Source: a virus
DNA: 64,000 bases
IMG/VR virus record: IMGVR_UViG_3300032579_000510
Coordinates: 1-64,000 of that record
Direction: 5' to 3' (one strand)
Notes under the pieces: generated by a model
Seen by the model: only the letters and a program-made list of their open reading frames with translations
What the model was told of the DNA's origin: nothing
Databases searched by the model: none
Shown here: positions 40,013-56,954 of the stretch, piece by piece
Position numbering within the stretch: the first letter of the stretch is position 1
How the letters are laid out: each line of letters opens with the position of its first letter
Translations under genes and position numbers: made by a program

Positions 40013-40804
40013 ATGTTATTAACTGAATTATACGAAACTAAACAACCCAAGCATGCAGCATTTTGTTTTGGCCGCATGAACCCGCCTACCATTGGTCACG
40101 CTCAACTAATGGCCACCACACAAAAAGCTGGTAAAGGTGGTGACTATTACATATTCCTTAGTCACACACAAGATCGCAAAGACAATCCCCTAGACTACGA
40201 TACTAAAATCAAATTTATTAAACAGATGTTTCCTAAATATGCTGGCCATGTTAGCACAACTGAGTTACGCACTATCATAGAAATAGCTGGATTTTTATAT
40301 GATCATGGATACACACATGTTACCTTTGTAGCGGGTAGTGATAGACTAGAAGCATTCCAAAAACTACTCACCAGTTATAATGGTGTAGAAGGCAAGAAAA
40401 CCTACTATAAATTTGCTAATATTGATTTTGTATCAAGTGGCGAACGTGAAGACGGTGCAGAAGGCGTAGAAGGCGTTAGTGCTAGTCAAGCACGTGCGGC
40501 CGCAATGGCCAATAATATGCAGGCTTTTTCACAGGCCACAGGTGCAGGTAAATTTGCACAGTCACTATTCCAAGCAGTTAGAGCTGGTATGGGTCTAACT
40601 GAAAATATTGCTGAAGCAGGTGGAGTGGGTGTAGTTAAAGGTGGCGATCGTAGATATAATAACAGTCTAACAGTAGATGTAAAACCTAACACACTTGGTA
40701 AAGAAATGAAAGCATTTGGTCTAGTAGGCCGCAAAAATCCAGGTGCACCAACACGACAAATTCCAGTTGGTAAGAATGTAGGCAAAGGCAAGAAACCTGT
40801 TTAA
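40013..40804 (+). CDS. NMN/cytidylyltransferase-like enzyme with CTS-like N-terminus
   Basis: 263 residues. AFCFGRMNPPTIGHAQL is the nucleotidyltransferase GxxNPxxxGH signature (residues ~17-32); GVSASQARAAA is the ISSTxIR-like second site. Such enzymes join a nucleotide to NMN, pantetheine-P or a sugar-P; NMN adenylyltransferase is the best guess. The C-terminal ~80 residues are basic and disordered. The N-terminus MLLTELYE resembles T4 Alt (MELITELFDE), a capsid-targeting peptide with the (L)xE cut site of gp21. This suggests it is packed in the head (inference). Confidence 0.8.
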   Translation: MLLTELYETKQPKHAAFCFGRMNPPTIGHAQLMATTQKAGKGGDYYIFLSHTQDRKDNPLDYDTKIKFIKQMFPKYAGHVSTTELRTIIEIAGFLYDHGYTHVTFVAGSDRLEAFQKLLTSYNGVEGKKTYYKFANIDFVSSGEREDGAEGVEGVSASQARAAAMANNMQAFSQATGAGKFAQSLFQAVRAGMGLTENIAEAGGVGVVKGGDRRYNNSLTVDVKPNTLGKEMKAFGLVGRKNPGAPTRQIPVGKNVGKGKKPV

Positions 40805-40806
40805 TC

Positions 40807-41121
40807 ATGGCAGAAGTTAGTCTGAGTGTACAAGTGCAGGTACTGCAGCCTAGATGGATTGATCATGAACGTAATCGTTATCGCTTGTATGTCAATGATG
40901 ATCTAATTACAGAACGTACTTGGATTTGGAACATAGACACTGTAATTGAAGAAAATATACTAGTTGATGTTCCCCCACACCTATCACATACTGTTAGAAT
41001 AGAACCTATCCTAGAACCTAGGTCTATAGCACAATTTGGCCTACGTAATTTCAAAGTAAACAATTGGCCTAAACCAGATTGGGGTGGTGCGAAGACTCAA
41101 CTAAGTTTTATTATAGAATAA
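40807..41121 (+). CDS. Small beta-sandwich protein
   Basis: 104 residues. VSLSVQVQVLQPRWIDHERN, RTWIWNIDTVIEENILVDVP and a C-terminal WGGAKTQLSFIIE. All-beta sequence akin to the 39536 protein and perhaps a related binding module. It starts just after the preceding stop. Confidence 0.55.
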   Translation: MAEVSLSVQVQVLQPRWIDHERNRYRLYVNDDLITERTWIWNIDTVIEENILVDVPPHLSHTVRIEPILEPRSIAQFGLRNFKVNNWPKPDWGGAKTQLSFIIE

Positions 41122-41124
41122 ATA
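41117..41124 (+). promoter_or_regulatory. Late promoter box (AATAAATA)
   Basis: Overlaps the preceding stop; leader with TTAGGAAAT before ATG 41145. Confidence 0.5.
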
Positions 41125-41144
41125 CACTATATTAGGAAATTATT

Positions 41145-41540
41145 ATGAAACCATCAGAATTTATTAAAGAAGAATTTGACAGCAAAGAATACAATGATGA
41201 AGCAGGTATGGTAGAAAACAACCTTGTAACTATCATGCGTTCATTAGTAGACTTGGCCAATCACATCAAACACGATGACAATCTACCTGAATGGTGCCAA
41301 GAAAAAATCGCCGCAGTTAAGGGTATGATGGTTAGTGTTAGTGATTATATTGTCAGTCAAAAATCATTAGGTATTGATCCTAAAGTAGACCAAGTATCAG
41401 AAGATGCCAGTGGCGGTGGTACATCAAGCGGTGGTATTGCTACTACTCCTATGGGTGGCATGGCTAAACGTAGCCAAGTAGGTAGCTTGTTTGGTGGCAC
41501 TTACCAACAACCTAAAAAAAGCAAGGCTAAAAAGAAATAA
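41145..41540 (+). CDS. Putative internal head protein with CTS-like N-terminus
   Basis: 131 residues. MKPSEFIKE is a short amphipathic start ending in IxE, very like T4 capsid-targeting sequences (IPIII MKTYQEFIAE). The middle is helical (VTIMRSLVDLANHIKH, IAAVKGMMVSVSDYI). The C-terminus is Gly/Ser-rich and basic (QQPKKSKAKKK), as in DNA-associated internal proteins. It overlaps the Dps gene (TAATGG). Confidence 0.6.
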   Translation: MKPSEFIKEEFDSKEYNDEAGMVENNLVTIMRSLVDLANHIKHDDNLPEWCQEKIAAVKGMMVSVSDYIVSQKSLGIDPKVDQVSEDASGGGTSSGGIATTPMGGMAKRSQVGSLFGGTYQQPKKSKAKKK

Positions 41541-41980
41541 TGGATAAGTTTTCAACGCAGTTAAAGATTGCTTTTGCTAGCCAATATGCGTTTGCTATCA
41601 AAGCACAGAACTTTCACTGGAACGTGGAAGGTCCAGAGTTCTATCAACTGCATTTGTTGTTTGAAACAATCTACAACGAAGTCTACGGTGCCGTGGATGA
41701 TTTTGCAGAAAATATCCGTAAGATCAAAGCCTATACTCCAGCAAGCCTAGAACGTTTTTCATCATTGACCGCAGTTGATGATGAACTAGCAGTTTTAGAT
41801 CCACAGGCTATGGTAGCAGAATTATTGGGCGATGCTGAAAAAATGCAAGAAATTATGAAAGTGTTGTTTGTTGAAGCTGAAAGTCTTGGGCATCACGGCC
41901 TAAGCAACTTCCTAGCAGATCGTCAAGATGCATTTGCTAAACACGCTTGGTTCTTACGTGCAACACTTAAAGGTAACTAA
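41540..41980 (+). CDS. dps: Dps/ferritin-like protein
   Basis: 146 residues. The Dps four-helix bundle with the ferroxidase residues: QNFHWNVEGPEF (His26), YQLHLLFE (His38), and AVDDFAENI (Asp53, Glu57). Dps shells bind DNA and oxidise iron, which protects DNA from hydroxyl radicals. A phage copy could protect phage or degraded host DNA, or be packaged. It starts one base before the end of the gene with a CTS-like start. Its own N-terminus is an ordinary Dps start. Confidence 0.9.
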   Translation: MDKFSTQLKIAFASQYAFAIKAQNFHWNVEGPEFYQLHLLFETIYNEVYGAVDDFAENIRKIKAYTPASLERFSSLTAVDDELAVLDPQAMVAELLGDAEKMQEIMKVLFVEAESLGHHGLSNFLADRQDAFAKHAWFLRATLKGN

Positions 41981-41982
41981 TT

Positions 41983-43935
41983 ATGGACATGAAAAAACTT
42001 TTAGAATCAATTACTAGACTAGAAGGCAAAGAGTCTATGAAGGGTGCCGAAAAGGCGCCTACAGGCCCTAAGTTTACAGGCTATTGGAAAGGCACAGACT
42101 CAGCAACACCAGGTAACAAAATGGTAGGCGGTGGTGCAGAAGAATATGACGAAAGTATTCTAAAAGACCTAAGCAAAGGTCCTAAGGCCAAAACCGTTGA
42201 AGAAGAACTAGCAGAAGCCTATGCACAGTTTATGGAAGATGACCTAGGTGTAGAACCTAAACGTCCAAGTCGCAAAGGCAGTCGCCCGGAACGTGAATAT
42301 ACTAAACACGGTAAACCAAGTAAACGTTATAAAGAAGTTAGCGTAAATGAACATGGAGATCAAGAAGATTACAAACCATGGGGATCACAGGATTTAGAGC
42401 CAGGACAAAAAGCTGTTCAAGGTAAACCTGTAAAAGATACTAAAAAATTTACTAAAGATCTAGCTAAAGATTTTGGCAAACATTTAGGTCAAGATGACGA
42501 CGACTTAGAAGAAGGTGTTGCTGATCGTGTTTATACTGTAAACATTGTGCGCCGCAGTAGTTTTGGTGGCGAAGATAGAACACGTTCAACATCAGGTACT
42601 ATTCCAGAATTGCTAGACTATTTTGGCTACACATTAGAAACAGGCAAATCATACGAACACGAACGTGGTCGTTACAAAATCAACATGGCACCTAAGAACA
42701 TTAAGAGTCTAGTTGACAACTTAAACAAAGCCGCAAGTAACGCTGCCAGAAATGGACACAGTAGTACATATTACGAAGTAGGCAGTGAAGAACAACAAGT
42801 CACAGAAGGTCGTGTTAAAGACGTTGCCATTGACCTCAAAGAACTATCTGACGAAGAATTTCTTAAAAAATACAAAAAAACCAAAGCAGAAATGCGTTCA
42901 GCACTAAGTGAAGCAATCAATCCAGCACAGCAAGCGGCTATTGCTATTTCAATGAAGAAAGCTCATAAGAAACCTAAAAATGAAGGTTGGGGTGCTGATG
43001 CGGCCAATGCTCGTCACGCAGAACAACAAAGTGACTGGGACAAAACTTTAGAAAAATACAAAAACGATCCTAAAATGACCAGTAGATTAAAACATCTACG
43101 TAGTTGGAAAGCTAGTGAAGCTGAAAAAGCCGCACACGCTGGCGAATACGTTGTTCGTGGTCGTGGACATAAATTCCCAGGTGAAGACTTAGATGAAGCT
43201 ACATCTACTGTAAAATACGGTGTGTTTGCCAAAGGTGGTAGCGTTGGTAGTGATAACAGCAAACCATACAAGGTATTTGACACTAAAGAAGAAGCCCTTG
43301 CTTGTGCTAAAAGATATCGTTCACAGTTAACACCAGGTGAACGTGACTACTATAAAATGGGCTTTGTAACCAAGGCTATTAAAGAAAGTAGCGGACATAA
43401 AGTAATTGATAAGAAATTAAAGGATCGTGACAGTTGGCAACGTTTCTTAGATCAAACTCCAGAAGAACGTGCTGCTCACGAAAAGAAAAATGCAGAGATT
43501 GCAAAAAAATTAGCCAAAGACTACAAAAGTCCATTCAAACATTCAATCTGGAAAGATGAAGTAGAAGAAGACATTGTGCCAATGGCTAATCCACAGTCTA
43601 CTGGTTCTGTTAATCCAGCCAATCAACCTACAGATCAACAAGCTGAACAAGATCCTAAAACAGCGGCACAGACTGCTATTGCATTAAACACTCTTAAATC
43701 TGCTGCAGGAATCACAGCACAGCCAAAAGATATTGCCAAAGCACTAGATGATGTTAGCCAAGGTAAACAGGTTAATCAACAGGATATGACTAAACTTAAA
43801 CCTATGATGGATGTGATGAAAACTGCTGGCACTGACCCAAAGGTTGCACAACAGTTTAAAAATCTATCAACACAGGCCAAGCAAACACAGCTACAACAAC
43901 AGCAACAACAGGCCAAACAACAACCTAAGACTTAG
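41983..43935 (+). CDS. Large basic, disordered virion-type protein
   Basis: 650 residues, rich in Lys/Glu with long low-complexity parts. It starts MDMKKLLESITRLEG. LLE at residues 6-8 fits (L/I)xE. Several internal stretches look like further cut sites (VEEELAEAYAQFMEDDLGVE, MRSALSEAINPAQQ, GEDLDEATSTVKY). The final ~25 residues are Gln-rich (TQLQQQQQQAKQQPKT). The size and composition fit a precursor of internal head peptides processed by a prohead protease. Similar long proteins occur in T4-like aquatic phages. The 3' end overlaps the convergent minus gene by 4 nt. Confidence 0.6.
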   Translation: MDMKKLLESITRLEGKESMKGAEKAPTGPKFTGYWKGTDSATPGNKMVGGGAEEYDESILKDLSKGPKAKTVEEELAEAYAQFMEDDLGVEPKRPSRKGSRPEREYTKHGKPSKRYKEVSVNEHGDQEDYKPWGSQDLEPGQKAVQGKPVKDTKKFTKDLAKDFGKHLGQDDDDLEEGVADRVYTVNIVRRSSFGGEDRTRSTSGTIPELLDYFGYTLETGKSYEHERGRYKINMAPKNIKSLVDNLNKAASNAARNGHSSTYYEVGSEEQQVTEGRVKDVAIDLKELSDEEFLKKYKKTKAEMRSALSEAINPAQQAAIAISMKKAHKKPKNEGWGADAANARHAEQQSDWDKTLEKYKNDPKMTSRLKHLRSWKASEAEKAAHAGEYVVRGRGHKFPGEDLDEATSTVKYGVFAKGGSVGSDNSKPYKVFDTKEEALACAKRYRSQLTPGERDYYKMGFVTKAIKESSGHKVIDKKLKDRDSWQRFLDQTPEERAAHEKKNAEIAKKLAKDYKSPFKHSIWKDEVEEDIVPMANPQSTGSVNPANQPTDQQAEQDPKTAAQTAIALNTLKSAAGITAQPKDIAKALDDVSQGKQVNQQDMTKLKPMMDVMKTAGTDPKVAQQFKNLSTQAKQTQLQQQQQQAKQQPKT

Positions 43936-44378
43936 TCATCTAGGTCTTCTGGTTCTTGCCCAGCTGATTGCAGTTCCTTGTCTAGCTTTTTAATTGCTGA
44001 TTTTACACTTGCTAGTTTATTAAACAGTTTAGCACCGCGTTTACCATTGATGTACAAGCAGAACTTACCAGTTAGGTCTGCTTTGACTTCTGCTAGCATA
44101 TCACCTTTAAATCCAATCTTAGCAGTGTATACTGGAGCAACATCAGCTAGAGTGTCAAACCCTAGTAGAATACTGTCACCTTGAGCACCAATCTTAACTA
44201 ATCGTTGATCAAATACGCCACTTGAATTAGCTTTACGCATGATCATAGCAGCTACTCGAACATTGTTTTCTGCTACTTGAATAGTACCATCATCGTCAAT
44301 CCAAAAATCTTCACCTTCAAATGGCCCGTCAAACGGATCTGAAATAATGTTGGTTAACTGTTTGTTGAATGTAGTCAT
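43932..44378 (-). CDS. Small soluble phage protein (early-type, minus strand)
   Basis: 148 residues from ATG 44378, behind TAGGTG. It has a beta-rich mid-section (FWIDDDGTIQVAENNVRVAAMIMRK... GDSILLGFDTLADV) and a helical C-terminus. No family recognised. It has its own perfect sigma-70 promoter and lies alone on the minus strand within a late plus-strand region, so it is probably an early gene of independent control. The stop overlaps that of the convergent gene. Confidence 0.6.
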   Translation of the reverse strand: MTTFNKQLTNIISDPFDGPFEGEDFWIDDDGTIQVAENNVRVAAMIMRKANSSGVFDQRLVKIGAQGDSILLGFDTLADVAPVYTAKIGFKGDMLAEVKADLTGKFCLYINGKRGAKLFNKLASVKSAIKKLDKELQSAGQEPEDLDD

Positions 44379-44411
44379 TGTTGGGTTCACCTAATGGTTA
44401 ATAATACGTCT

Positions 44412-44440
44412 ATTATACACTCAAAATCTAAAGTTGTCAA
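44412..44440 (-). promoter_or_regulatory. Sigma-70 promoter (minus)
   Basis: On the minus strand: TTGACA (44440-44435), 17-nt spacer, TATAAT (44417-44412). Drives the gene at 43932-44378. Confidence 0.8.
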
Positions 44441-44452
44441 GTGTTAAATCAT

Positions 44453-44460
44453 GATAAATA
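44453..44460 (+). promoter_or_regulatory. Late promoter box (GATAAATA), leaderless spacing
   Basis: It ends 5 nt before ATG 44466 with no ribosome site. It lies beside the divergent early promoter at 44412-44440. Confidence 0.55.
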
Positions 44461-44465
44461 CTCTT

Positions 44466-44930
44466 ATGCTGATTACAGAATTTTTCTTTGAAACTAAACG
44501 TAAACAATCTCAAACCAATGAGTTTAAAGATTGTATAGTCCCAGTTCCTCGCCCGCTTAAAAGCAAGACCCCTGTAGCTGAAGACCAGTGGACTAACCAG
44601 GACAATACCTATCACACAGGCAACGGGCAATGGCACGAAAATGGTGGTGAATGGTCGGGTGGTAGCAACAGTACCTATCACACAGGTCAGGGCATGTGGG
44701 AAGACCTAGCCACAAGTAACTATATCACCAATGAAAATGAACATGTAGATTTTGGTGACATTATCACAGCACGCAACCTAATAGGATTGTCCTTAGATAA
44801 TCCAAAAGAACACAAGCACAAGTATTTTGAATTTTTAAAACATCTTAGAAATAAAGCAGGTGAAGAATACAGTACACAAGTACATCAACTTGCGGCCAAA
44901 CTAGCCAAATCAGCTAAGGACTCAGACTAA
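44466..44930 (+). CDS. Protein with CTS-like start, function unknown
   Basis: 154 residues from ATG 44466, chosen because a late box ends 5 nt before it. MLITEFFFETKRK resembles the T4 Alt capsid-targeting start MELITELFDE. The middle has two related repeats (NTYHTGNGQWHENG, STYHTGQGMWEDL) and the C-terminus is helical (LAAKLAKSAKD). It overlaps the next ATG by one base. Possible head-packaged protein. Confidence 0.55.
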   Translation: MLITEFFFETKRKQSQTNEFKDCIVPVPRPLKSKTPVAEDQWTNQDNTYHTGNGQWHENGGEWSGGSNSTYHTGQGMWEDLATSNYITNENEHVDFGDIITARNLIGLSLDNPKEHKHKYFEFLKHLRNKAGEEYSTQVHQLAAKLAKSAKDSD

Positions 44931-46846: not shown

Positions 46847-46860
46847 TAAAGGAAAGTTCA

Positions 46861-47571
46861 ATGAAAAAACTATTAGTAGCAGTAGCATTATTAGCAACAT
46901 CAATGTCAGCATTTGCTGGCCTTAAAGATTGTAGTCAGTTTGAAGTAGCATTACCAACATACACAGCTAAACCAGGTGACCAAGAACTATGTCACATGAA
47001 CTACGCTGTTATTCATCGTTGCGATGTTAAAGCACCAGAAGCAGTATTTGAGCATTTAACACCAGCAGCAATTAGTGGTCCAGCAAAACGCAAGGACAAT
47101 TTCCACCCAGACACAAGTGTAACACCAGCATGTTCAGCTAGCCTAGCAGATTATGCTATTGTTGGTAAAACACATGATCGTGGTCATATGGCTCCAGCAG
47201 GTAACAACACACAAAGTGATGCTATCATGAGTGAAAGTTTTAACTTGTCAAATATGGTTCCACAAGTAGCTAACAACAACCGTGGTATTTGGAAACAAGC
47301 AGAAACATTTGAACGTCAATGGGCTCTAACACCAAACACAGACTACTATGTTATCAGTGGTGGTATTTGGGATCAAGGTTATCAAAAGATTGGTAGCGGT
47401 TTAGGTATTCCTACACGTTTATACAAAATTGTATACGAAAAGAAAAGCAAAAAAGTTACAGCATGGTTAATGCCAAACGCAGCACTACCAGTAGCAGACT
47501 TACCTAAGTATGCAACTACAGTGGCTAACATTGAAGCGGCTACAGGTATCAAATTTAACTTACCACAGTAA
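46861..47571 (+). CDS. Secreted DNA/RNA non-specific endonuclease
   Basis: 236 residues. MKKLLVAVALLATSMSAFA is a Sec signal peptide with AFA cleavage before Gly20. The nuclease core shows DRGHMAP with catalytic His109, and SFNLSNMVPQ...NN for the metal site, as in Serratia-type/NUC1 nucleases. It would act in the periplasm on single- or double-stranded nucleic acid. AAAGGAAAG precedes the ATG. Confidence 0.9.
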   Translation: MKKLLVAVALLATSMSAFAGLKDCSQFEVALPTYTAKPGDQELCHMNYAVIHRCDVKAPEAVFEHLTPAAISGPAKRKDNFHPDTSVTPACSASLADYAIVGKTHDRGHMAPAGNNTQSDAIMSESFNLSNMVPQVANNNRGIWKQAETFERQWALTPNTDYYVISGGIWDQGYQKIGSGLGIPTRLYKIVYEKKSKKVTAWLMPNAALPVADLPKYATTVANIEAATGIKFNLPQ

Positions 47572-47595
47572 TCAAATTTAAAAGGATTTTCAATT

Positions 47596-48012: not shown

Positions 48013-48027
48013 CATAACTTAACAAAC

Positions 48028-48053
48028 AACCACTCGCAAGGGTGGTTTTTTAT
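48028..48053 (+). terminator. Intrinsic terminator after SpeD-like gene
   Basis: AACCACTC-GCAA-GGGTGGTT hairpin (one G-U pair, GNRA-type loop) followed by TTT TATT. The sigma-70 promoter at 48053 begins directly after it. Confidence 0.85.
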
Positions 48054-48081
48054 TGACTTTTTTACCAAATTCGTGTATAAT
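48053..48081 (+). promoter_or_regulatory. Sigma-70 promoter
   Basis: TTGACT (48053-48058), 17-nt spacer, TATAAT (48076-48081); TTTACCAAA lies in the spacer. It serves the nucleotidase gene together with the late box at 48100. Confidence 0.8.
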
Positions 48082-48099
48082 GCTTGTATCTTAAATCAC

Positions 48100-48107: not shown

Positions 48108-48114
48108 CTACATC

Positions 48115-48654
48115 ATGCAAGCAAAAGACCTAATTAGAGCAACAGACAACACTAAAATTTACCTAGACATGGATGGAGTCCTTGCAGACTTTTTTGCAGA
48201 ATATGCAAAACTAGCTGGGGTTACTAGCGGTAGCTACAGAGATATACCACCAGCTAAAGCTGATCCTACCCTAGACAAAATGATTGGCACTGATTTCTTT
48301 GCTCGCTTGCCTATGTTTAGCACAGCGCCAAACTTAATACAACTAGTATTGAGTTACGTACCACACTATAACATCTGTTCAAGTCCTTTACGTGGGGATC
48401 ACGAGAATAGCAGTAAATGGAAACGTGTATGGATCGCTAAACATCTAAGCCCACAACCCAGTGACGTTGTTATCACAGGGCAAAAAGAACGTCATGCAGT
48501 AAACCCAGATGGTAGCCCAAATATCTTAATTGATGATCGCGGCACTAACATTGTTGCTTGGCGTGCCCGTGGTGGTATTGGCATTAAGTATCAAGCAGAT
48601 GAAGACAGTTTAGACGTAGTAGCAAAAGGACTAGCACACGCATATGGCTATTAA
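48115..48654 (+). CDS. HAD-type 5'-nucleotidase
   Basis: 179 residues from ATG 48115. KIYLDMDGVLADFF holds the HAD nucleophile and acid Asp (18, 20); KWKRVWIAKHL the conserved Lys region; NILIDDRGTNIVAWRARGG motif IV. This matches the 5'(3')-deoxyribonucleotidase family, which dephosphorylates nucleotides. The start MQAKDLIRATDN resembles the start of the 49381 protein (MRAKDLVKGN) but lacks the Glu cut site. It overlaps the next gene by 11 nt. Confidence 0.85.
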   Translation: MQAKDLIRATDNTKIYLDMDGVLADFFAEYAKLAGVTSGSYRDIPPAKADPTLDKMIGTDFFARLPMFSTAPNLIQLVLSYVPHYNICSSPLRGDHENSSKWKRVWIAKHLSPQPSDVVITGQKERHAVNPDGSPNILIDDRGTNIVAWRARGGIGIKYQADEDSLDVVAKGLAHAYGY

Positions 48655-49384
48655 TTTATATGAAGGCGGTAATGTTTTTAAAGACGAAAAGGGTCAACCC
48701 GCAACTATTCGTATCACTCGCAACAATGTGGTTCCAACAGTACAATGGTTAGAGAAGCTAACTGGACTGAATCTAGTAGACAATATGCTAGGCAGTACAG
48801 GTTACAAAGAAACTTCAGGTGATCTAGACCTAGGTGTAGATGTTAGTAAAATCTCAAAAGAAACGTTAATAAATCAGCTGATTAAGAAGGGAATTGACCC
48901 AAAAGACATCAGAAAAACAGGCGATAGTGTGCATTTAAAGACACCTATCCTAGGTGATGCAGCTAACGGTTATGTACAAACTGATTTTATGTTTGGCGAG
49001 CCTAGTTGGCAGAAATTTAGTCTAACTGGTAGCCCAGAAGGTAGCCCATACAAAGGACTACATCGCCATATTTTACTCAGCAGTATTGCTAAAGCTCAGG
49101 GACTAAAATGGAGTCAAAAATACGGCCTAGTTGATCGTGCTACCAATGAAGTTATTACACAAGATCCTAAAGAAATTGCTGCACGCCTAGTAGACGGAGT
49201 TCCAGCAGACTTAGCCAGCGTTGAAAGTATTATTAAAAAAATCAAAGGTCGTCAAGACTACGACCAACTAACAGCAGATGCACGCGAATCATTTGCTAAA
49301 GATCAGTTAGTATTACCAGAATCTGCACCACTTCCAGGTACAGGTGCTTGGTTCCGTCAGTTTGTAAACATGGATCATATATGA
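48644..49384 (+). CDS. Nucleotidyltransferase-fold protein
   Basis: 246 residues. MLGSTGYKETSGDLDLGVD at ~48-66 is the GS...DxD signature of the DNA polymerase-beta nucleotidyltransferase superfamily, followed by KTGDSVHLKTPILGD... YVQTDFMFG with a third Asp. Such enzymes transfer nucleotides to RNA, proteins or small molecules. The neighbouring gene has the same fold. Ends inside the next start (ATGA). Confidence 0.78.
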   Translation: MAINLYEGGNVFKDEKGQPATIRITRNNVVPTVQWLEKLTGLNLVDNMLGSTGYKETSGDLDLGVDVSKISKETLINQLIKKGIDPKDIRKTGDSVHLKTPILGDAANGYVQTDFMFGEPSWQKFSLTGSPEGSPYKGLHRHILLSSIAKAQGLKWSQKYGLVDRATNEVITQDPKEIAARLVDGVPADLASVESIIKKIKGRQDYDQLTADARESFAKDQLVLPESAPLPGTGAWFRQFVNMDHI

Positions 49385-50568
49385 GAGCAAAAGATCTAGT
49401 CAAAGGTAACATTGCTTACCATGAAGAATTAAATCCAGAAGTATGGGATGATGTATTTGGCAAAGGTTATAAACTTCGTATTGACGTGCGCTATAGGCTA
49501 TTAGAAATAGCACATCGTTTTATTGAATACTTAGAAGTACCCGACTTTAAACTATCAGGTATCTTATTACGTGGTAGTCTAGCTAACTATAACTATACTC
49601 CCTACAGTGACTTTGATCTACACCTAGTTACCAACTATGCTGATCTAGGCTGTGATATCACAGAACAGTTTTACATGGCCAAGAAAAAGATATGGAACGA
49701 CGAACATGACATTACTATCAAAGGCTATGAAGTAGAACTTTATGTAGAAGACGTTGATGCTAAAAACGTCAGCTCAGGCACATACGATATCTTAGATGAT
49801 AAATGGGTAAGTGTGCCTAAACACGAAGAGCCTACTATAGATGACCGTGCTGTTAATGCCAAAGCCCGTGACCTAATGACCCAGGTCAATCGCGCAGTTA
49901 AATCAGGTAGTGTAGAAGACCTAGACAGACTAAAAGACAAAATTAAAACAATGCGTCAAGCTGGTTTAGATGCTAACGGTGAGTTTAGTACAGAAAATCT
50001 AGCATTTAAAATCCTGCGTAACAAAGGTTACATGGATAAACTATACAAAGCCAAAAATCAAAAGTTTGATCAGGAATTGAGCTTAGATGAACAAGTTATT
50101 AACGAACTAAGAAACAAGTTGCAGGATTATCTACAGCAACAGTTTCCTACATGGCCACCGTATGTGGTAAATGATCTACTGTATAAAAATGCCAAAGGTA
50201 TAACTGATTCTGCAGAGTTAGAAGATTGGATCGCTGGCATTAAGAAAGACTACAAAGTTAAACGTTGGGAGTTGATTAATGACATGCCTATTACGTTTAA
50301 GATGTTTCATCCAGAAACCAGAAAACAATTAATAGCACGTGGGGTAGGTACAGATACTATTCAAAATCCTTATAATGTACCAAAAGACGACGAACGTCAT
50401 GCTCAACAGGCCGCAATGATACAACAACGTGGCATTAGTCCAGAGCCTATTGTGTTAATGAAAGGTCGTCATCAATACTACCTAATAGAAGGCTGGCATA
50501 GAACTATACAGCACTTCAAAGCAAACCCACAAGGATACAAAGGTCCTGCGTGGGTAGGATATCTATGA
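49381..50568 (+). CDS. Nucleotidyltransferase with C-terminal ParB-like segment
   Basis: 395 residues from ATG 49381. ILLRGSLANYNYTPYSDFDLHLV (~61-83) is the GS...DxD nucleotidyltransferase signature. EVELYVEDV adds the third acid. The C-terminal ~50 residues (PEPIVLMKGRHQYYLIEGWHRTIQHF) recall the ParB/sulfiredoxin phosphate-binding loop (LIEGWHR). MRAKDLVKGN begins the protein, as in its neighbour (MQAKDLIRA). Paired with the 48644 enzyme. Confidence 0.75.
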   Translation: MRAKDLVKGNIAYHEELNPEVWDDVFGKGYKLRIDVRYRLLEIAHRFIEYLEVPDFKLSGILLRGSLANYNYTPYSDFDLHLVTNYADLGCDITEQFYMAKKKIWNDEHDITIKGYEVELYVEDVDAKNVSSGTYDILDDKWVSVPKHEEPTIDDRAVNAKARDLMTQVNRAVKSGSVEDLDRLKDKIKTMRQAGLDANGEFSTENLAFKILRNKGYMDKLYKAKNQKFDQELSLDEQVINELRNKLQDYLQQQFPTWPPYVVNDLLYKNAKGITDSAELEDWIAGIKKDYKVKRWELINDMPITFKMFHPETRKQLIARGVGTDTIQNPYNVPKDDERHAQQAAMIQQRGISPEPIVLMKGRHQYYLIEGWHRTIQHFKANPQGYKGPAWVGYL

Positions 50569-50651
50569 GAGAATATTTTACATTTGAAAACTTACCCCTG
50601 ACCATAGTAGTTGGACTTGTTGCTTGGTCATGGGCTATTGTTTTACTGTGA
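50565..50651 (+). CDS. Tiny membrane peptide
   Basis: 28 residues, one membrane helix (LTIVVGLVAWSWAIVLL) after MREYFTFENLP. It starts in an ATGA overlap with the preceding gene and ends just before ATG 50659. It is short, so support is moderate. Confidence 0.45.
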   Translation: MREYFTFENLPLTIVVGLVAWSWAIVLL

Positions 50652-50658
50652 TCTTATC

Positions 50659-51063
50659 ATGAGAGCAAACGAATTCTTAAAAGAAGACTCCCATATACCG
50701 CGTTATCTATATAAATGGGTGAACGGTCAACAATTCCAGAAGTATATTGATGCAGGCAAGCTGCCGGTTAAACGTAAGTATGCTCACTATATTGATGCTG
50801 TTGATAGGTTAGTTCCAGGCAATAGTTTTACAGATGAAGCACATATTGGCAGATGGACTGGTGATACATTAATTAGAATTGACGCGAGCAAACTGTCTAA
50901 TAACATATATCCCATTGCTGGTAATAGAACATATCTAAAAACAATGGGGATGACACACAGTGAGTACGATCCAAATGCGTGGGAATACGAGCCGGAAGAA
51001 ATAGACGAATATTGGATTGAAGGCCCTGTTGATATTAGTTCAGCGGAAATAATTAAGAAGTAA
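50659..51063 (+). CDS. Protein with CTS-like start, ART-like features
   Basis: 134 residues from ATG 50659. MRANEFLKEDSH is a strong CTS-like start: FLKE at 6-9 is (L)xE. Then LYKWVNGQQFQKYIDAG, PGNSFTDEAH, DTLIRIDASKL and DEYWIEGPVDI. The Y..-S-F-T- and WIEGP order recalls ADP-ribosyltransferase-like proteins of phages, such as T4 Alt, but no certain RSE motif is seen. Identity tentative. Confidence 0.5.
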   Translation: MRANEFLKEDSHIPRYLYKWVNGQQFQKYIDAGKLPVKRKYAHYIDAVDRLVPGNSFTDEAHIGRWTGDTLIRIDASKLSNNIYPIAGNRTYLKTMGMTHSEYDPNAWEYEPEEIDEYWIEGPVDISSAEIIKK

Positions 51064-51152
51064 AGAACACCCTGCCTTAGGACTGTTAGGTGTGGCCGGC
51101 TGCTGGCCTGGAGGGATGCCAAAAGTGAGCAACTATTTAGAAAGTAAAAACA
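51064..51152 (+). other. Non-coding gap with GC-rich pairing potential
   Basis: Unlike the rest of the window this stretch is GC-rich. ACACC (51067-51071) can pair with GGTGT, and GGCC pairs with GGCC around GGCTGCT. A ribosome site is not obvious before ATG 51153. It may be a leader structure of the next gene; weak. Confidence 0.25.
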
Positions 51153-51926
51153 ATGAAAACAGTAATTTGCCATTTCTATAACGAAGAACATCTATTACCC
51201 TGGTGGCTAGAACATCATAAACGTATCTTTGATCATGGTATTATGATTGACTATCATAGCACTGATCGCAGTATGGAAATCATCAGAGAGATATGCCCTA
51301 ATTGGGAATTACGTTACACTCGTAATAAATTTTTTGACAGTGGACCTATTGATCAAGAAGTAATGAACATAGAAAAGGTTCTAGGTGGTTGGCGCATGGC
51401 ATTAAATGTCACAGAGTTCTTATATGGTAACACTGACCATTTGCGTGACTTACCTGACCCAACACAGTATTTTATTGGCAACTATGTGTTTGTTGACATG
51501 GAAAATCCTGAACAAGGACAAACGCTATTAGATCACAGACATCCCCTACACCAACAACGCTATTGGGGCTATGATGACTTTGCTAATACTGGTGCTCCTA
51601 GACATGGACCAATAATGAGTCGCATGAGTCGTAGCATACACAACTATCCTGTAACCTATACAGGTGGGCGTCATTGGAATGGACACGAAAAATCATTTAA
51701 TGATCTGGTGATATTTTACTATGGTTGGGCTGACTTTAGTGAAGCTGGGATTAAACGTAAAGATCAAATCAAAACTAAAATCAGTGAGGGTGCTACAGTG
51801 CATCATCACTCCGCAGATGACTTTAGAAATTGGGGTCGTGCTAGGAAAGTAGACAGTAGAGATCTACGCCCAGAGATTGCTACGATCCTAGAACACAATC
51901 GTAGAATAACTGGATCTGAGTGGTAA
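51153..51926 (+). CDS. Glycosyltransferase-like protein (GT2/GT92 type)
   Basis: 257 residues. YNEEHLLPWWLEHHKRIFDHGIMIDYHSTDRS is the opening of Glyco_tranf_2_4/GT92-type enzymes: NEE, W-LEHH, then D-x-S-TD. YFIGNYVFVDME follows the DxD-type pattern loosely, and VHHHSADDFRNW the acceptor region. Third glycosyltransferase of the window. It follows an 89-nt GC-rich gap. Confidence 0.75.
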   Translation: MKTVICHFYNEEHLLPWWLEHHKRIFDHGIMIDYHSTDRSMEIIREICPNWELRYTRNKFFDSGPIDQEVMNIEKVLGGWRMALNVTEFLYGNTDHLRDLPDPTQYFIGNYVFVDMENPEQGQTLLDHRHPLHQQRYWGYDDFANTGAPRHGPIMSRMSRSIHNYPVTYTGGRHWNGHEKSFNDLVIFYYGWADFSEAGIKRKDQIKTKISEGATVHHHSADDFRNWGRARKVDSRDLRPEIATILEHNRRITGSEW

Positions 51927-51934
51927 GATAAATA
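51927..51934 (+). promoter_or_regulatory. Late promoter box (GATAAATA)
   Basis: It adjoins the stop of the glycosyltransferase gene. A GACAGGAA site is in the leader, but ~20 nt before ATG 51966. Confidence 0.55.
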
Positions 51935-51965
51935 CATAAAGACAGGAATTTGTTAAAAGTTAATC

Positions 51966-54900
51966 ATGCGTTACAGTCAAATTAAAAAAGCCCTACGAGA
52001 AGCAGAGATCATTGATGAAGTATCAATGAGTCCAACCAGCCTTGAAAAATTTGCCAATAGTCCAGAAGCAGAAGGCATGCTTATGGGCATTGAATTTGAA
52101 ATGTGCGTACCTAATGCATCATCAGGCGATGACGAACCTGAATGGGAATACGACTGGGACGCTAACGAAAGTGCCTACGACATTGACGAAATTATTAACT
52201 TCTTCCGTATGGGCGAATTTAGTAACATGAGTCGCAGTGATGCTGATCGCCTACGCAGTCAGTTATACGATGAATACCTAGAATGGCAGTACGAAGCTGC
52301 ACAAAACTACGTAGACGAAAATACTACTGATGTTATTGAGAAAACTCGTGAGTATTTACAAGATGATGCTCGTGATGCCAGCAATGATCATTACGATGAA
52401 TTTGTCGCAGATGCTAAAGAAGAACTAGGCAAACTATTACCAGACGATGATGCCGCTATAGAAGAGCGTGTTCGTGCATTAACATTAGCATGGATGGATC
52501 GTTGGATAGATGAACAAATAGAAGAAGCAGATAGCCGCGCATACGATAACGCACGTGAAGCTGCTGAAGAAGAACTACGAGAAGAGTACCGTGACAACTA
52601 TGCTAGCCAAACAGATTGGCTAGAGTCAATTGGCGTTGATGACATGCAGGATGCACATCGCCATTGGAACTTAGATTGGCCACACATGTATGATGCTAAC
52701 TACAGCGACGAAGGTAGTGCTGACGTAGATCAAGTAGCAGATGATTTCTACGGTGCTACAGGTTACGAAGCACGTGGTTACAGCAACTACCATGCTGCTA
52801 GCCGCAGTGACCAACAAGCAAAAGGTTATTTCATTATTGAACCAGATGGCTCAATTGATGCTGATAGTGGTGATGCAGGCTTGGAGTTTATTAGCCCAGC
52901 AATGCCACTTAAAGACGGCATTGAAATGATCAAGCGAGTTAAACAATGGGCTAAGGCAGCTGGTTGTTACACTAACAAGTCAACTGGCCTACACATGAAC
53001 ATCAGTGTTCCTGGAATGACTATTGAGAATCTAGACTATGTTAAACTAGCATTGTTCCTAGGTGACGAACACGTACTTAAAGAGTTTGGTCGTCAATACA
53101 ATAGTTTCTGTAAAAGTGCAATGAAGATTGTTAAAGAAAAGATTGAACAGAATCCAGAAAATGCCACAGCCTTATTAAACAAGATGAAAGAACATCTTGG
53201 TGCGGCTGCTAGTAAACTAATCCACAGTGGCGTTACACAAAAGTATACAAGTATTAACACCAAAGACAAGTATGTAGAATTCCGTGGTCCTGGTGGCGAT
53301 TATCTAAACGAAGACATACCTAAATTAATCAGCACTGCTCTTCGTCTAGCACAGGCTCTACGCATTGCTACAGATGATAATGCTTACAAACAAGAATACG
53401 CTAAGAAGTTATACAAATTAGTAAGTCCAAATGAAGGTGATTGGACGGATCCTAACAATTCAGTATCTCTATTCAGTCGCTATGCTCTAGGCGAAATTAA
53501 GAAAGATGAATTAGTCAGCAATGTACGTCAAGCACAGGTAGCTCGTAAAGAGAAGAAAGGTGAAGAACAACAGTACTGGGTTATGAACAAAGACGGTACT
53601 GGCGGCAAGCAAATGGTCTTTGCTCAAAGTACTACAGATGCTATCATCAAAGGTGGTAAGCAATTAGGCATGAAGCGTGAGGACAGTATTAGCAAACTTA
53701 AGGCCGTGCCGTTTGAACGTACTCCTCCAGGTCCAGCACCAACTAAACCAGCACCAGAATCATTGACTGGTGGTTGGATCAATTGGATCAAAGATAAAGC
53801 ACCAATAGTAGACGCAAATGAACTGTTCAGAATTGAACAAGAACTTAAAGCCGGAAATTTTAGTTACCTAGATGATGAGAGTACACAATATCTATTAGAC
53901 TATATTAATGAACTAATAGAATTCCGTAAAGAATCTAGTACACAAATCCCAGACTCAGTACCCGAAGGATGGAAAGGTTGGGTTGAAGATACCCTACCAC
54001 ATGTTACATTAGCAATAGCAAACGAAGTTAGAGCGAGAATTAAAGACGGCAGGGATGGTTTAGATCAAGCGGCTAATGTTTGGATTATCCAACAAATTGA
54101 CAAAGAACTACGTCGTAGACAAAGCGGTACAGCAGATAATGGTGGTGTTGTCGACAATAATGAAACACGCTGGAAGGTTAATTCTGCAAGTGGTAGTTCA
54201 GTATATGTTGATGCTGATAGCCCACGTCAAGCCAAAGTTAAAGCAGTAGAATTGTTTGCAAGAGAACATGGATTAAATGTTGATGCTAATGATTTAGAAG
54301 CCATTGCTACTACGCAGGATAGTGGTGCGTTACATGCTATTCCACAACAATGGCGTAACTGGGTTGATACATTACCTAATAGACGCACAGAAGTTATTGC
54401 TGACTTTAGACGCCAAATTGAACAAGGTGAACATAATCCTAGTTTAGAATCACAAGCGCAACGCGATGCTGTGATTAGAGTTATTGATGATGAACTACGC
54501 CGTAGACAAGATGCTGGTGAAACTGGTGAAGAACAAGAATGGTCTATTAGAGATGGATTGGGTAGATATGTAGGTACAACAAACGCAAGAACACAGGCCG
54601 AAGCACTACATATATACGGTAGTGTTAATAATGTTGATCCTAGAAACTATACAGCAACTTTAACTGATGATAATCCTCCACATGCGGGCATGTCTACTAC
54701 CAGCAGAGAAGTGTTTGATAGTTTACCAGAAGGTACTAGATCTTGGCTAGAGCGTGTAGGTGAGCATCACGATTTAGAACTACGTCAGGCTCTAGATCAT
54801 CTTGCGGCAGGTAGAGGTATCGGTAGTGGACTATATAGTAATCAAGTAGCATTTGTTAAAACAGCTATTGAGACTGAACTACGCCGTCGTAGCAATAATG

Positions 54901-55289
54901 CTGCTGTAGAAAACGATGATACTACCAGAAATCCAGTGTTTGATACACTACCACAGCACTGGAAAGATTACATTGCTAATGATCTAAGTTATAGTGCAGA
55001 TATGCATCTTATCAATATGTTAAGAAATCTATCGCGTGAGGATGCTGGCCGTAATCTTACTCTAAGCGATCAACAGTTAGCCTACATTAGAATTTTACTT
55101 AAACGTCAATTGCGTGCTAACGGTATTAACCCAGACGATGAATCAACTCCGTCACCAACTACTACTTACGCAGATGATGCTGATGAGCGTGAACGTATGC
55201 GTCGTGAGCGTGAGCAGATTTCACAGGATATGGCACAACAAACAAACGAAAGTATTAAAGAACTACGCAGACTAGCAGGATTACAATAA
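51966..55289 (+). CDS. Amidoligase-domain protein with C-terminal repeats
   Basis: 1107 residues. Start MRYSQIKKALREAEIIDE contains LRE, an (L)xE site. The COOH-NH2 amidoligase core (glutamine synthetase superfamily) is visible: GIEFEM at ~40, STGLHMNISVPG at ~338, KYVEFRGPGG at ~434. These enzymes form isopeptide bonds. After ~530 come repeats of two kinds: a ~45-residue W-x-V beta module (near 534, 733, 856) and a ~60-residue helical module starting W..W (near 602, 668, 796, 924, 999). It ends NESIKELRRLAGLQ, a C-terminal motif known from other phage virion proteins. May cross-link or tag proteins. Confidence 0.72.
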   Translation: MRYSQIKKALREAEIIDEVSMSPTSLEKFANSPEAEGMLMGIEFEMCVPNASSGDDEPEWEYDWDANESAYDIDEIINFFRMGEFSNMSRSDADRLRSQLYDEYLEWQYEAAQNYVDENTTDVIEKTREYLQDDARDASNDHYDEFVADAKEELGKLLPDDDAAIEERVRALTLAWMDRWIDEQIEEADSRAYDNAREAAEEELREEYRDNYASQTDWLESIGVDDMQDAHRHWNLDWPHMYDANYSDEGSADVDQVADDFYGATGYEARGYSNYHAASRSDQQAKGYFIIEPDGSIDADSGDAGLEFISPAMPLKDGIEMIKRVKQWAKAAGCYTNKSTGLHMNISVPGMTIENLDYVKLALFLGDEHVLKEFGRQYNSFCKSAMKIVKEKIEQNPENATALLNKMKEHLGAAASKLIHSGVTQKYTSINTKDKYVEFRGPGGDYLNEDIPKLISTALRLAQALRIATDDNAYKQEYAKKLYKLVSPNEGDWTDPNNSVSLFSRYALGEIKKDELVSNVRQAQVARKEKKGEEQQYWVMNKDGTGGKQMVFAQSTTDAIIKGGKQLGMKREDSISKLKAVPFERTPPGPAPTKPAPESLTGGWINWIKDKAPIVDANELFRIEQELKAGNFSYLDDESTQYLLDYINELIEFRKESSTQIPDSVPEGWKGWVEDTLPHVTLAIANEVRARIKDGRDGLDQAANVWIIQQIDKELRRRQSGTADNGGVVDNNETRWKVNSASGSSVYVDADSPRQAKVKAVELFAREHGLNVDANDLEAIATTQDSGALHAIPQQWRNWVDTLPNRRTEVIADFRRQIEQGEHNPSLESQAQRDAVIRVIDDELRRRQDAGETGEEQEWSIRDGLGRYVGTTNARTQAEALHIYGSVNNVDPRNYTATLTDDNPPHAGMSTTSREVFDSLPEGTRSWLERVGEHHDLELRQALDHLAAGRGIGSGLYSNQVAFVKTAIETELRRRSNNAAVENDDTTRNPVFDTLPQHWKDYIANDLSYSADMHLINMLRNLSREDAGRNLTLSDQQLAYIRILLKRQLRANGINPDDESTPSPTTTYADDADERERMRREREQISQDMAQQTNESIKELRRLAGLQ

Positions 55290-55894
55290 TGAATATAATT
55301 GATTTGTTTGAAGAAATGGAAGTAAACAATCTAACCCTAATTGATGCACTACGTGACTTCCTGCCGTTGGCTGTGCGTCATTTAAAACTTCCTGGTATTC
55401 CTAAAATTACTTTAGAAAAAAACATAGAAAAATCTAATGTTCCTACCTTTGGTCGCTTTACTAACGAAGACGATCATGTATATGTAGCCATTAATAATCG
55501 CAACCCCAATGATATTCTACGTACACTAGCACACGAAATGTGCCATTTCAAACAACGTACAGAACATCAACTAAGTGGTGGTAGCTGGCACACAGGTAGC
55601 CCAGAAGAAAATCAAGCACACGATCAAGCTGGTATTATCATGCGTGAGTTTAACAGCAAATTTCCACAATACCTACGTATGAAACCTATTATTTTACCTA
55701 ATTCAGCACCTAGCAAGGACTTAGATGAAAACTTTGCAGATGGCAAGGGTCCGGGTCGCCCAGGTGATAGTCAACGCTATGGCATTCCAAAACATGCTAC
55801 TATGTCTGAATTAGAACGAGCCAGCCACAGCAAAGGCCGTAAAGGACAGCTAGCTCGTTGGCAACTAAATATGCGTAGAGGGCATAAAAAATGA
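55289..55894 (+). CDS. SprT-like zinc metallopeptidase
   Basis: 201 residues. HEMCHFKQ at 82-89 is the HExxH zinc motif, with a candidate third ligand in NQAHDQAGI. MNIIDLFEE at the start is CTS-like (LFE). The C-terminal part (ELERASHSKGRKGQLARWQLNMRRGHKK) is basic. Eukaryotic Spartan proteins cut DNA-protein cross-links; a packaged protease could clear host proteins from DNA. Coupled to the amidoligase by TAATG and to the next gene by 4 nt. Confidence 0.78.
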   Translation: MNIIDLFEEMEVNNLTLIDALRDFLPLAVRHLKLPGIPKITLEKNIEKSNVPTFGRFTNEDDHVYVAINNRNPNDILRTLAHEMCHFKQRTEHQLSGGSWHTGSPEENQAHDQAGIIMREFNSKFPQYLRMKPIILPNSAPSKDLDENFADGKGPGRPGDSQRYGIPKHATMSELERASHSKGRKGQLARWQLNMRRGHKK

Positions 55895-56439
55895 GAGCCA
55901 TTGAATTTTTAACAGAAGTTAAACAACGTTTAGACGCTAAATGCTGGAAGGGCAAACACAAAGAAGGTACCAAGATCAAAGGTGGCGTTCGTGTTAATAA
56001 CTGTGTACCAAATGAAAGCCTAGAACTAGAAGAAGAGTTTAATCTTATTGAGTCTATCATTGACAATCTTGCACTACGCAATCAAGTTGATAGTGAAGTG
56101 ATCTGGGAAGATTTAGAATCCTTGTCAGATGACGAGCTATATGTATTTGCTGTTACACAAGAGCCAGTGAACGAAGATTGGCAAAAGGTCAACAAGAAAG
56201 ACAAAACAGATGGTATGAGTAAGAAAGCTGTTAGTGCATACCGCCGTGAACACCCTGGCAGTAAATTAAAAACAGCCGTTACTACTAAACCTAGTAAACT
56301 AAAGAAAGGTAGCAAGGCCAGCAAGCGTCGTAAGAGCTACTGCTCACGTAGTAAAGGTCAAATGAAAATGCACAATATCAGCTGTGCTAAAACTCCAGAT
56401 AAGGCAATTTGTAAAGCACGTCGTCGCTGGAACTGCTAA
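55891..56439 (+). CDS. Basic internal-type protein with CTS-like start
   Basis: 182 residues. MRAIEFLTEVKQ ends in LTE, the best CTS-like match in the window. CWKGKHKEGTKIKGGVRVNNC is a block common in such phage proteins. The C-terminal ~80 residues (GMSKKAVSAYRREHPGSKLK... CSRSKGQMKMH... ARRRWNC) are highly basic, the DUF6321-type domain. The composition fits DNA-bound internal head protein. Overlaps its neighbour. Confidence 0.68.
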   Translation: MRAIEFLTEVKQRLDAKCWKGKHKEGTKIKGGVRVNNCVPNESLELEEEFNLIESIIDNLALRNQVDSEVIWEDLESLSDDELYVFAVTQEPVNEDWQKVNKKDKTDGMSKKAVSAYRREHPGSKLKTAVTTKPSKLKKGSKASKRRKSYCSRSKGQMKMHNISCAKTPDKAICKARRRWNC

Positions 56440-56441
56440 CA

Positions 56442-56954
56442 ATGTTTCTTGCTGAATTTGGGCCGCCCAAAAACCTAGACCACTATCTTTACAAACTTTG
56501 TAAAGAACTAGTATTTGCACAAAAAGTCAAACCTGAATACTATGGTTGGGTAGCTGCAGGTATCCTAGATCCACGCAATCGTTTTATATGGGCCATTAAC
56601 ATTCCTGCAGGTGAAGGCGATCGTTTACATGCTGAACCAGCGGCCATGCAGAAATATCAAGCAACCTACGGTGATATTCCAAAGGGCAGTATCTTACTTA
56701 CTACGCTAAGTCCTTGCAGTGAATTTATGAATGATCGTGATGGTCCTAGCTGTACAGAGATTGTTGATAACAGTCCTATACGCAGAGTCTATTGCGGGTT
56801 CATTGATCCTACACAAGGTGAAAGTGCAGCATATCAAAACAAGCAGTTTACTTTAATTGCTACTAAAAATAAAAAAATACACGAAATGTGCAAGGGCTTT
56901 GCAGAAGAGTTTTTGGGCAGTTTAGCCGACACCCACGTTAACAAGGAAAATTAA
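56442..56954 (+). CDS. Cytidine/deoxycytidylate deaminase-fold protein
   Basis: 170 residues. LHAEPAAM holds His63/Glu65, the zinc ligand and catalytic acid. SPCSEFMNDRDGPSC holds Cys92 and Cys104, so the spacing PCx11C is longer than the classic PCxxC. This fits the deaminase superfamily with an altered loop. The start MFLAEFG loosely resembles a CTS (LAE). Substrate not known: a nucleotide, nucleoside, or DNA/RNA base. Confidence 0.72.
   Translation: MFLAEFGPPKNLDHYLYKLCKELVFAQKVKPEYYGWVAAGILDPRNRFIWAINIPAGEGDRLHAEPAAMQKYQATYGDIPKGSILLTTLSPCSEFMNDRDGPSCTEIVDNSPIRRVYCGFIDPTQGESAAYQNKQFTLIATKNKKIHEMCKGFAEEFLGSLADTHVNKEN

Follow-up and report, generated by a model that had tools for sequence, protein, structure and literature searches.

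Why do unrelated enzymes encoded side by side in a phage genome begin with peptides of the same kind? The question is raised by a 64-kb stretch of DNA (here the window), which covers positions 1 to 64,000 of the 68,644-base record IMGVR_UViG_3300032579_000510, and in which the proteins of a gene cluster starting at position 40,013 often carry a short N-terminal leader that ends in a hydrophobic residue, any residue, and glutamate. The source is an uncultured T4-like aquatic phage, and the 68.6-kb record is probably a fragment of a larger genome; the top PHROG match of its DNA polymerase is PHROG 262. A sequence-only reading had taken the leaders for capsid-targeting peptides of the T4 type, cleaved by the prohead protease gp21, and the proteins behind them for an injected enzyme kit that acts before transcription. 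The capsid-targeting part of this proposal is well supported by homologues, and the leader ends match the L/I-x-E consensus of gp21 as well as the inferred capsid cut site of related phages. The cluster probably represents a T4-type loading code in an enzyme-rich, modular form, with which this phage and its relatives carry an enzyme kit in the particle.

Three related contigs were used for comparison: G001 (149 kb), G002 (189 kb), and G003 (158 kb). The amidoligase-like protein of the cluster, 51966 (genes are named by their first coordinate), is 100%, 70%, and 53% identical in these contigs, respectively, and the cluster of G001 as called is the same as that of the window. Part of the 51966 gene gave no blastn match among isolate phages, and tblastn with the protein against isolates matched Agrobacterium phage Atu_ph07 alone (two records; 33% identity over 18% of the query). 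In addition, a set of related loci, mostly fetched by homology to 55891, provided 1,888 non-redundant open reading frame (ORF) products with 439,148 residues, and a separate set fetched with 49381 provided 669 proteins with 2,687 internal methionines.

Leaders and their conservation

The sequence-only reading had listed seven starts ending in (L/I)xE and four looser ones. All eleven peptides are encoded, although 48115 and 49381 have no glutamate at the leader end and the only such triplet of 56442, LAE, lies at residues 3-5. The starts of 44466, 48115, 49381, and 50659 are in-frame ATGs rather than longest-ORF starts. The leader ends in LxE or IxE in 40013, 41145, 41983, 48644, 50659, 51966, and 55891, in FxE in 44466 and 55289, and in VxE in 56956, so that the last three deviate from L/I in the strict sense. 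Two of these proteins are additions to the earlier list, 48644 (NLYE/GGNVFK, where the slash marks a leader end or seam) and 56956 (YVKE/SYEL). The hydrophobic targeting positions of the T4 internal protein IPIII (4 and 7), in a length-flexible form, are fitted by 55289, 55891, and 56956; position 4 is polar in 41145 and 50659.

A motif search over the whole phage proteome had been proposed to see whether such starts are limited to the cluster. Among ORFs of at least 60 amino acids, based on our own gene calls with the four inner ATG starts, 11 of the 20 in the cluster have a leader ending in [LIVMFY]xE at residues 7-12, versus 6 of the 61 in the rest of the window (Fisher p = 7.9e-5); one of the 11, the glycosyltransferase 51153, is probably a chance match. 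Over whole proteomes, however, a looser pattern was found 9 times against 3.8 expected in this record, and 11 against 9.6 in G002, 12 against 9.0 in G001, 10 against 8.3 in G003, and 23 against 14.3 in T4. The loose [LIVMFY]xE form is common by chance, and loose expressions applied to whole proteomes are non-specific, with little or no enrichment. The case therefore rests on the conservation of the leaders and on their sharing between unrelated proteins.

Orthologues mostly retain their leaders while the leader sequences drift. In three phages, including G002 and G003, 40013 starts with MLLTELYE, MFLTELFE, and MFLTELFE, 41145 with MKPSEFIKE, MKPSEFINE, and MKPSEFIKE, and 51966 with MRYSQIKKALRE, MRYSQIKKALLE, and MRYTEIKQALIE. 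The leader of 41983 is MDMKKLLES in G003 and MDFKKILAKIDLFEG in G002. The leader of 48644 ends in LxE before GGNVFK in the window, G002, and G003 (M-AIN-LYE, M-VTK-LLE, and M-I-LKE); in locus L006 the start of the called copy is MHMGGNVFK, which departs from this form. Relatives of 44466 start with MLVKDLFEY, MLLTEFFSS, or MLLTEFFSQ, and orthologues of 48115 with MRAEELIRA, MRANELIKA, or MRANELTGA. In the 55289 family the hydrophobic start is retained, and the forms with glutamate are MNIIDLFEE, MNLFEMFEQE, MNLFEMFDTE, and MNLFEMFDLE. Among homologues of 49381, 16 of 23 distinct leaders have [LIVMF]xE at most five residues from the body, one of which (MQED) is an evident false match; the leader of the window protein (VKG) belongs to those without it.

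Leaders are also exchanged. Ahead of a similar DEVSM body, the amidoligase-like protein carries MRYSQIKKALRE in the window, and that of L106 carries MRLREFIVE. In the related loci the pattern M[RKHQ].{1,3}[DE][FLIM][LIFVAMT].E occurs at 126 of 1,888 protein starts versus 6 of 7,980 internal methionines, and the leader M[RK]xx[DE][FI][LI]xE stands on 30 single-linkage groups of bodies with no detected mutual similarity, the narrow leader pattern being derived from the same data that it counts. In the loci fetched with 49381 the narrow pattern was found at 10 of 669 starts versus 6 of 2,687 internal methionines. A pattern built from the IPIII positions tested by mutation (4, 7, 8, and 10, according to the available part of PMC9026906) matched 26 of these 669 starts versus 4 of the 2,687 internal methionines (p = 5e-15); the 26 include several close homologues or near-duplicates, and some had been seen before the test. 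In T4 itself the IPIII-position pattern selects 5 of 304 called ORFs, namely IPII, IPIII, Alt, gp24, and gp61.1; IPI as annotated (MKTFKEFTST) falls outside it.

The tagged bodies belong to many families. Pfam matches among 91 tagged representatives (E <= 0.01) include DUF6321 (22), GH19 (5), and CTP_transf_like (2), with single matches to superoxide dismutase, Nudix, M48, M78, amidoligase (PF12224), deaminase, and zeta toxin. The alignment of the superoxide dismutase-like protein of G002 to solved superoxide dismutases begins at its residue 14 or 15; compared with them it is 11-12 residues longer at the N-terminus, and this extension is the leader. Fe/Mn superoxide dismutase-like proteins with the leader MRA[RTV][DE]FLTE are encoded at L008:14556-15089 and in L010, L067, and L068, an unexpected enzyme for a phage head. 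Four other tagged proteins (L085:2344, L085:4241, L107:2287, and L106:9242) look by eye like ADP-ribosyltransferases (LYHVT, FHYTS) and a small kinase; L085:4241 and L106:9242 had no Pfam match at E 0.05.

Modules and their seams

Modules that form separate proteins with a leader of their own in one phage occur in fusions in another, often with [LIVMF]xE at the seam. The NFADGK module is encoded alone as MRANEFIIE/NFADGK in L006, starts as MRASEFITE/NFADGK in L062, and forms the tail of 55289 after LDE. The KQRLDAKCW module follows MRAIEFLTE in 55891 of the window and is fused behind a metallopeptidase in G002, with the seam MLPE/TKQRLDAKCW. The C-terminal module of 49381 is fused after VINE in the window and stands alone as MRSKEFITE/LRN[KR]LQDY in L004 and L006. 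Segments of 41983 match two separate places in G002, and this protein has internal sites at 42505-42513 (LEE) and 42904-42912 (LSE/AINPAQQAAIA); a module of the AANPAQQAAIA type is preceded by xE in several proteins. Finally, 50659 is 67% identical to an inner module of a 1,270-amino-acid HD and PolyA_pol protein, with the seam KLQE/D. This large protein (L149:139-3951) starts with MKISDLTE and combines HD_4, PolyA_pol, the 50659 module, and the NFADGK module.

To map seams, leaders were stripped and the bodies were mapped to inner positions of other proteins. The motif [LIVMF]xE lies exactly at the mapped seam in 46.9% of 228 contexts; no other offset between -20 and +20 exceeds 13.2%. After thinning to contexts with dissimilar upstream sequence, which are still related by ancestry, it was present at the seam in 66 of 146 and at other offsets (-12 to +12) in at most 18. 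The signal at P3, the hydrophobic position, is 0.50 at the mapped offset versus 0.01-0.35 at others. Leaders and inter-domain seams follow one code, which goes beyond the earlier proposal, and by their sequences the fused proteins look like head-loaded polyproteins divided by the protease.

A competing explanation accepts that the leaders target and are cut, but attributes the seams to linker composition or to a conserved first residue of the module, so that fusions stay whole. This is possible, though we give it clearly less weight. [LIVMF]xE is absent from more than half of the mapped seams, the seam of 49381 falls within a low-confidence helix of its predicted model rather than in a clear loose linker, and a conserved first module residue could account for part of the glutamate signal; in the NFADGK contexts listed, glutamate is always there and P3 varies. 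On the other hand, the seam signal is sharp at one offset, includes P3, and is common to unrelated modules, and the T4 proteins gp22 and gp67 are each cut by gp21 into several fragments (PMC9026906, as far as its available text goes).

Links to the phage head and the virion

The leaders were to be compared with the phage's own gp21. The record itself provided no gp21, but its relatives did: of 26 records, searched in groups of 5 and 21, one and three, respectively, gave a match to the protease (PF03420), the four being G002, G008, G009, and G022. The capsid protein gp23 was found in 5 of 11 records searched, four of which also have the gp21-type protease; the fifth has gp23 at the contig start. 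Around the inferred cut site, the capsid proteins of all five read LxE/[NST]A. In T4 gp23, FLTE, the same letters as in leader ends, occupies residues 62-65, which fits a propeptide of 65 residues (PMC9026906, available part).

Some proteins also appear to copy head-protein sequence, a feature absent from the earlier proposal. A 15-mer resembling the capsid sequence from the cut-site glutamate onwards was detected in 16 non-capsid proteins with scores of 36.6-53.0, versus shuffled maxima of 30.4-35.2, at a cut-off of 36 that was picked after the list was seen. It often directly follows the leader, and 13 of the 16 have [LIVMF] at P3. In 41145 such a capsid-arm-like segment lies at 41403-41444, after VSE (41394-41402), and scores 43.8 versus the same shuffled maxima. 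The C-terminal tail of 51966, NESIKELRRLAGLQ, resembles the C-terminus of the scaffold protein gp22, NVIDIKRLAGLK. A short motif of this tail lies at the C-terminus of 13 of the 1,888 proteins, and it is internal at 11 places in 439,148 residues; the 11 distinct C-termini listed comprise eight amidoligase orthologues or fragments, one scaffold, one 373-amino-acid protein of the tagged type, and one unrelated protein.

The motif NATAAATA, which we take to be a late-type promoter, is present upstream of 14 of 81 genes versus none of 782 coding windows in this record. The corresponding counts are 22 of 208 genes versus 1 of 2,276 coding windows in G002, and 28 of 222 versus 1 of 1,632 in G003. 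It lies 16-40 nt upstream of 40013, 41145, 48115, and 51966, and its position is kept in three phages at -29 of 41145 and at -16 of 48115. The form GATAAATA was found 31 nt upstream of 40013 and at -40 of 51966.

Association with the virion through the tail, baseplate, or neck, with the leader acting as an amphipathic interaction helix rather than a head-core signal, is unlikely. Five of the 91 tagged proteins match GH19 chitinases or endolysins, a type often located in tails. However, the leader ends fit the head-protease consensus and the inferred capsid cut site, the T4 equivalents are head-core proteins, and the capsid-arm and scaffold-tail copies point to the head.

Virion proteomes of the cyanophages S-CREM2 and S-SCSM1 provide a link to particles. 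Nine window proteins compared with all 501 proteins of the two phages gave five matches at E <= 1e-3, and all five belong to the 100 that are flagged as virion proteins on the basis of mass spectrometry. The homologues of 40013 are S-SCSM1 ORF91 (39%, MKSFLQFLKE) and S-CREM2 gp154 (36%, MKNFSSFLTE), that of 49381 is S-CREM2 gp156 (35% over 233 amino acids), and those of the C-terminal DUF6321 part of 55891 are S-CREM2 gp137 (72% over 97 amino acids) and S-SCSM1 ORF29 (39% over 87 amino acids).

Table 3 of the S-CREM2 paper contains 52 detected proteins (PMC10665884, available part). A pattern based on the T4 positions matches 5 of these versus 1 of 167 undetected proteins (Fisher p 0.0032), or 5 of 26 versus 1 of 167 when 24 structural proteins and two endolysins are set aside (p = 1.7e-4); several of the N-termini were known before this formal test. 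The matches are the S-adenosylmethionine (SAM) hydrolase (MKDFDSFLEE), gp13 (MKDLHSFLTE), the APH-like kinase (MKRFDAFLTE), gp136 (MQTFSMFFSE), and the cytidylyltransferase gp154. A Cas9-like nuclease of S-CREM2 has FASFMAE at residues 19-25, outside the pattern. The head-packaged enzyme set proposed earlier is supported by the detection in virions of homologues of 40013, 49381, and 55891; its action before transcription was not confirmed.

Several points weigh against head loading by such leaders, in addition to the deviating starts of 48115, 49381, and 56442. Some 55289 orthologues have no glutamate (MNLFEMFEDK, MNLFEMFDPN, and MNLFEMFDRN). Neither gp21 nor gp23 was found in the window record, G001, or G003. 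The scaffold-tail profile scores are 9.8-12.2, barely higher than those of shuffles (up to 10). The flagged virion proteins of S-SCSM1 are not enriched in the T4-position pattern (1 of 48 versus 1 of 234), and none of four patterns was significant on the S-SCSM1 proteome. The virion data come from other phages rather than from the source phage or a close relative.

That the start motifs reflect chance or composition, and the enzymes are ordinary late or auxiliary metabolic enzymes of the infected cell, is very improbable and, for the tagged set as a whole, already hard to hold: loose patterns are not clearly enriched in whole proteomes or among S-SCSM1 virion proteins, and the authors of both cyanophage studies noted that virion enzymes might be carry-over of abundant proteins (PMC9602691 and PMC10665884, available parts), but conserved, swappable leaders stand on unrelated bodies, the internal-methionine control is near zero, and the T4-derived pattern is enriched both in separately fetched loci and in the S-CREM2 virion proteome.

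For the T4-type loading that we prefer, the following course is proposed. The cluster would be the late-expressed cargo region of a T4-like phage, in which the N-terminal leader on most proteins directs entry into the prohead core. The gp21-type prohead protease would then cut after [LIV]xE and free the body in the maturing head. A second cut at inter-module seams would make fused proteins behave as polyproteins. The capsid N-terminal-arm copy of 41145 and the scaffold C-terminal-tail copy of 51966 are probably extra docking signals. The freed enzymes would be packaged alongside the DNA and passed on to the host cell. That this phage packages, cleaves, and injects them, and what they do in the cell, is what we infer from the comparisons above; we hold this explanation of the cargo region as a whole, from leaders and head loading to protease release and delivery, to be likely.

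A wider version, with evenly balanced prospects, is that in aquatic T4-like phages the leader serves as a general cargo code, combined with polyprotein cargo divided at [LIV]xE seams and with arm and tail addresses. Under this joint reading, a late gene might become loadable simply by adding M[RK]xx[DE][FI][LI]xE, and the kit might comprise superoxide dismutase, NMNAT, HD/PolyA-polymerase, amidoligase, Nudix, a zeta-toxin-like kinase, deaminase, and metallopeptidases. If true, many "hypothetical" proteins of aquatic phages could be predicted as injected effectors from a start of nine or ten residues, and the presence of NMNAT, kinase, and SAM hydrolase in cyanophage virions would have a reason. 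Cleavage at the seams would mean that phages deliver enzymes by way of polyproteins.

Proposed cargo proteins and known systems

The leader proteins and their neighbours in the earlier list are collected in the table.

Table 1. Proteins of the cluster with their leaders and other features (aa, amino acids)
Position	Strand	Protein	Leader	Leader end	Other features
40013..40804	+	NMNAT/cytidyltransferase-like enzyme	MLLTELYE	LYE, 40028-40036	phrog_3041, E 1.5e-49
41145..41540	+	131-aa protein	MKPSEFIKE	IKE, 41163-41171	leader kept in three phages
41983..43935	+	650-aa mosaic protein	MDMKKLLES	LLE, 41998-42006	
44466..44930	+	154-aa protein	MLITEFFFE	FFE, 44484-44492	start uncertain (other ATG 44451)
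48115..48654	+	5'-nucleotidase (NT5C)	MQAKDLIRA	no Glu	PF06941, phrog_2643
48644..49384	+	nucleotidyltransferase-like GS..D.D motif protein (by eye)	M-AIN-LYE/GGNVFK	LYE, 48656-48664	
49381..50568	+	nucleotidyltransferase domain and C-terminal module	MRAKDLVKG	no Glu	seam VINE/LRNK, INE at 50098-50106
50659..51063	+	134-aa protein	MRANEFLKE	LKE, 50677-50685	start uncertain (longer ORF from TTG 50611)
51966..55289	+	1,107-aa amidoligase-like protein	MRYSQIKKALRE	LRE, 51993-52001	C-terminal tail NESIKELRRLAGLQ, 55245-55286
55289..55894	+	HExxH metallopeptidase-like protein	MNIIDLFEE	FEE, 55307-55315	seam LDE/NFADGK, 55721-55729
55891..56439	+	DUF6321 protein	MRAIEFLTE	LTE, 55909-55917	second seam VNE/DWQKVN; PF19846 at aa 103-180
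56442..56954	+	dCMP/cytidine deaminase-like	MFLAEFG (degenerate)		PF00383, E 8.7e-8
56956..57375	+	139-aa protein	MTNWETYVKE	VKE, 56977-56985	W[ED]xYV[KR]E kept in relatives

Among the bodies named earlier, the amidoligase stands, as 51966 matches the amidoligase family phrog_2443 (E 1.1e-6, amino acids 266-477), though a Pfam search at E 0.05 gave it no amidoligase match. By eye, it seems to contain several degenerate repeats, each about 60 amino acids long and with a W-rich core. The label of a SprT-like protease for 55289 was not confirmed, with no Pfam match to the SprT family at E 0.05, no PHROG match at 0.001, and the HExxH motif only. For 48644, no family match was found in PHROG or Pfam. 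In the predicted model of 49381, confidence is limited to the nucleotidyltransferase domain, and its best fold matches are nucleotidyltransferases, at a weak E of 1.3e-3. A guess that 50659 is an ADP-ribosyltransferase was dropped: its predicted structure, from two sequences, is of low confidence (mean predicted local distance difference test score 43.6), and its best match in a PDB sequence search had only E 0.63. By eye, 56442 resembles the start of a tagged protein in L132 with the leader MKLLEFFVE.

Two neighbours in the cluster have no leader. A Dps/ferritin-like protein at 41540-41980, 83% identical in G002, lies between two leader proteins, and a NucA-type DNA/RNA non-specific endonuclease (PF01223) at 46861-47571 has an apparent secretion signal (MKKLLVAVALLATSMSAFAG).

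The T4-type leader itself is already known; the seams and the mimicry of capsid and scaffold are the most novel part of this analysis. In the open-licence PubMed Central literature, no description was found of leaders of this kind outside T4's own relatives. The closest known system is T4, in which IPI-IPIII and Alt have a short N-terminal leader, a propeptide of about 7-19 residues with hydrophobic targeting positions and an L/I-x-E end, and in which one of these proteins, Alt, is a host-delivered enzyme (PMC9026906, as far as available). The gp21-type protease is shared too, here in relatives. In T4 the set is limited to a few proteins, mostly small and basic, whereas many enzyme families and a shorter MRAxEFLxE form of the leader are encountered here, and multi-module proteins with seams, as well as capsid-arm and scaffold-tail copies, are on the side of this cluster and its relatives.

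One small T4 protein, gp61.1 (L044:18966-19130, minus strand; 54 amino acids, "hypothetical protein" in NC_000866), carries MKTFKEFIKE, a leader like a capsid-targeting sequence. Its body matches gp23 just after the cut site (score 69, reached by 0 of 2,000 shuffles). Judged by sequence, it is organized like the short arm-like proteins of the cluster and its relatives.

The ejection proteins of SPN3US and phiKZ, giant phages of another group, offer a further parallel; as far as the available descriptions go, they are many head proteins that are cut by the prohead protease and ejected. The cyanophages S-SCSM1 and S-CREM2 share with this phage the virion homologues described above and have T4-type leaders on five S-CREM2 proteins and ORF91. 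The available parts of the two papers mention no loading signal (PMC9602691, PMC10665884), and the link between their virion enzymes and a leader is new here.

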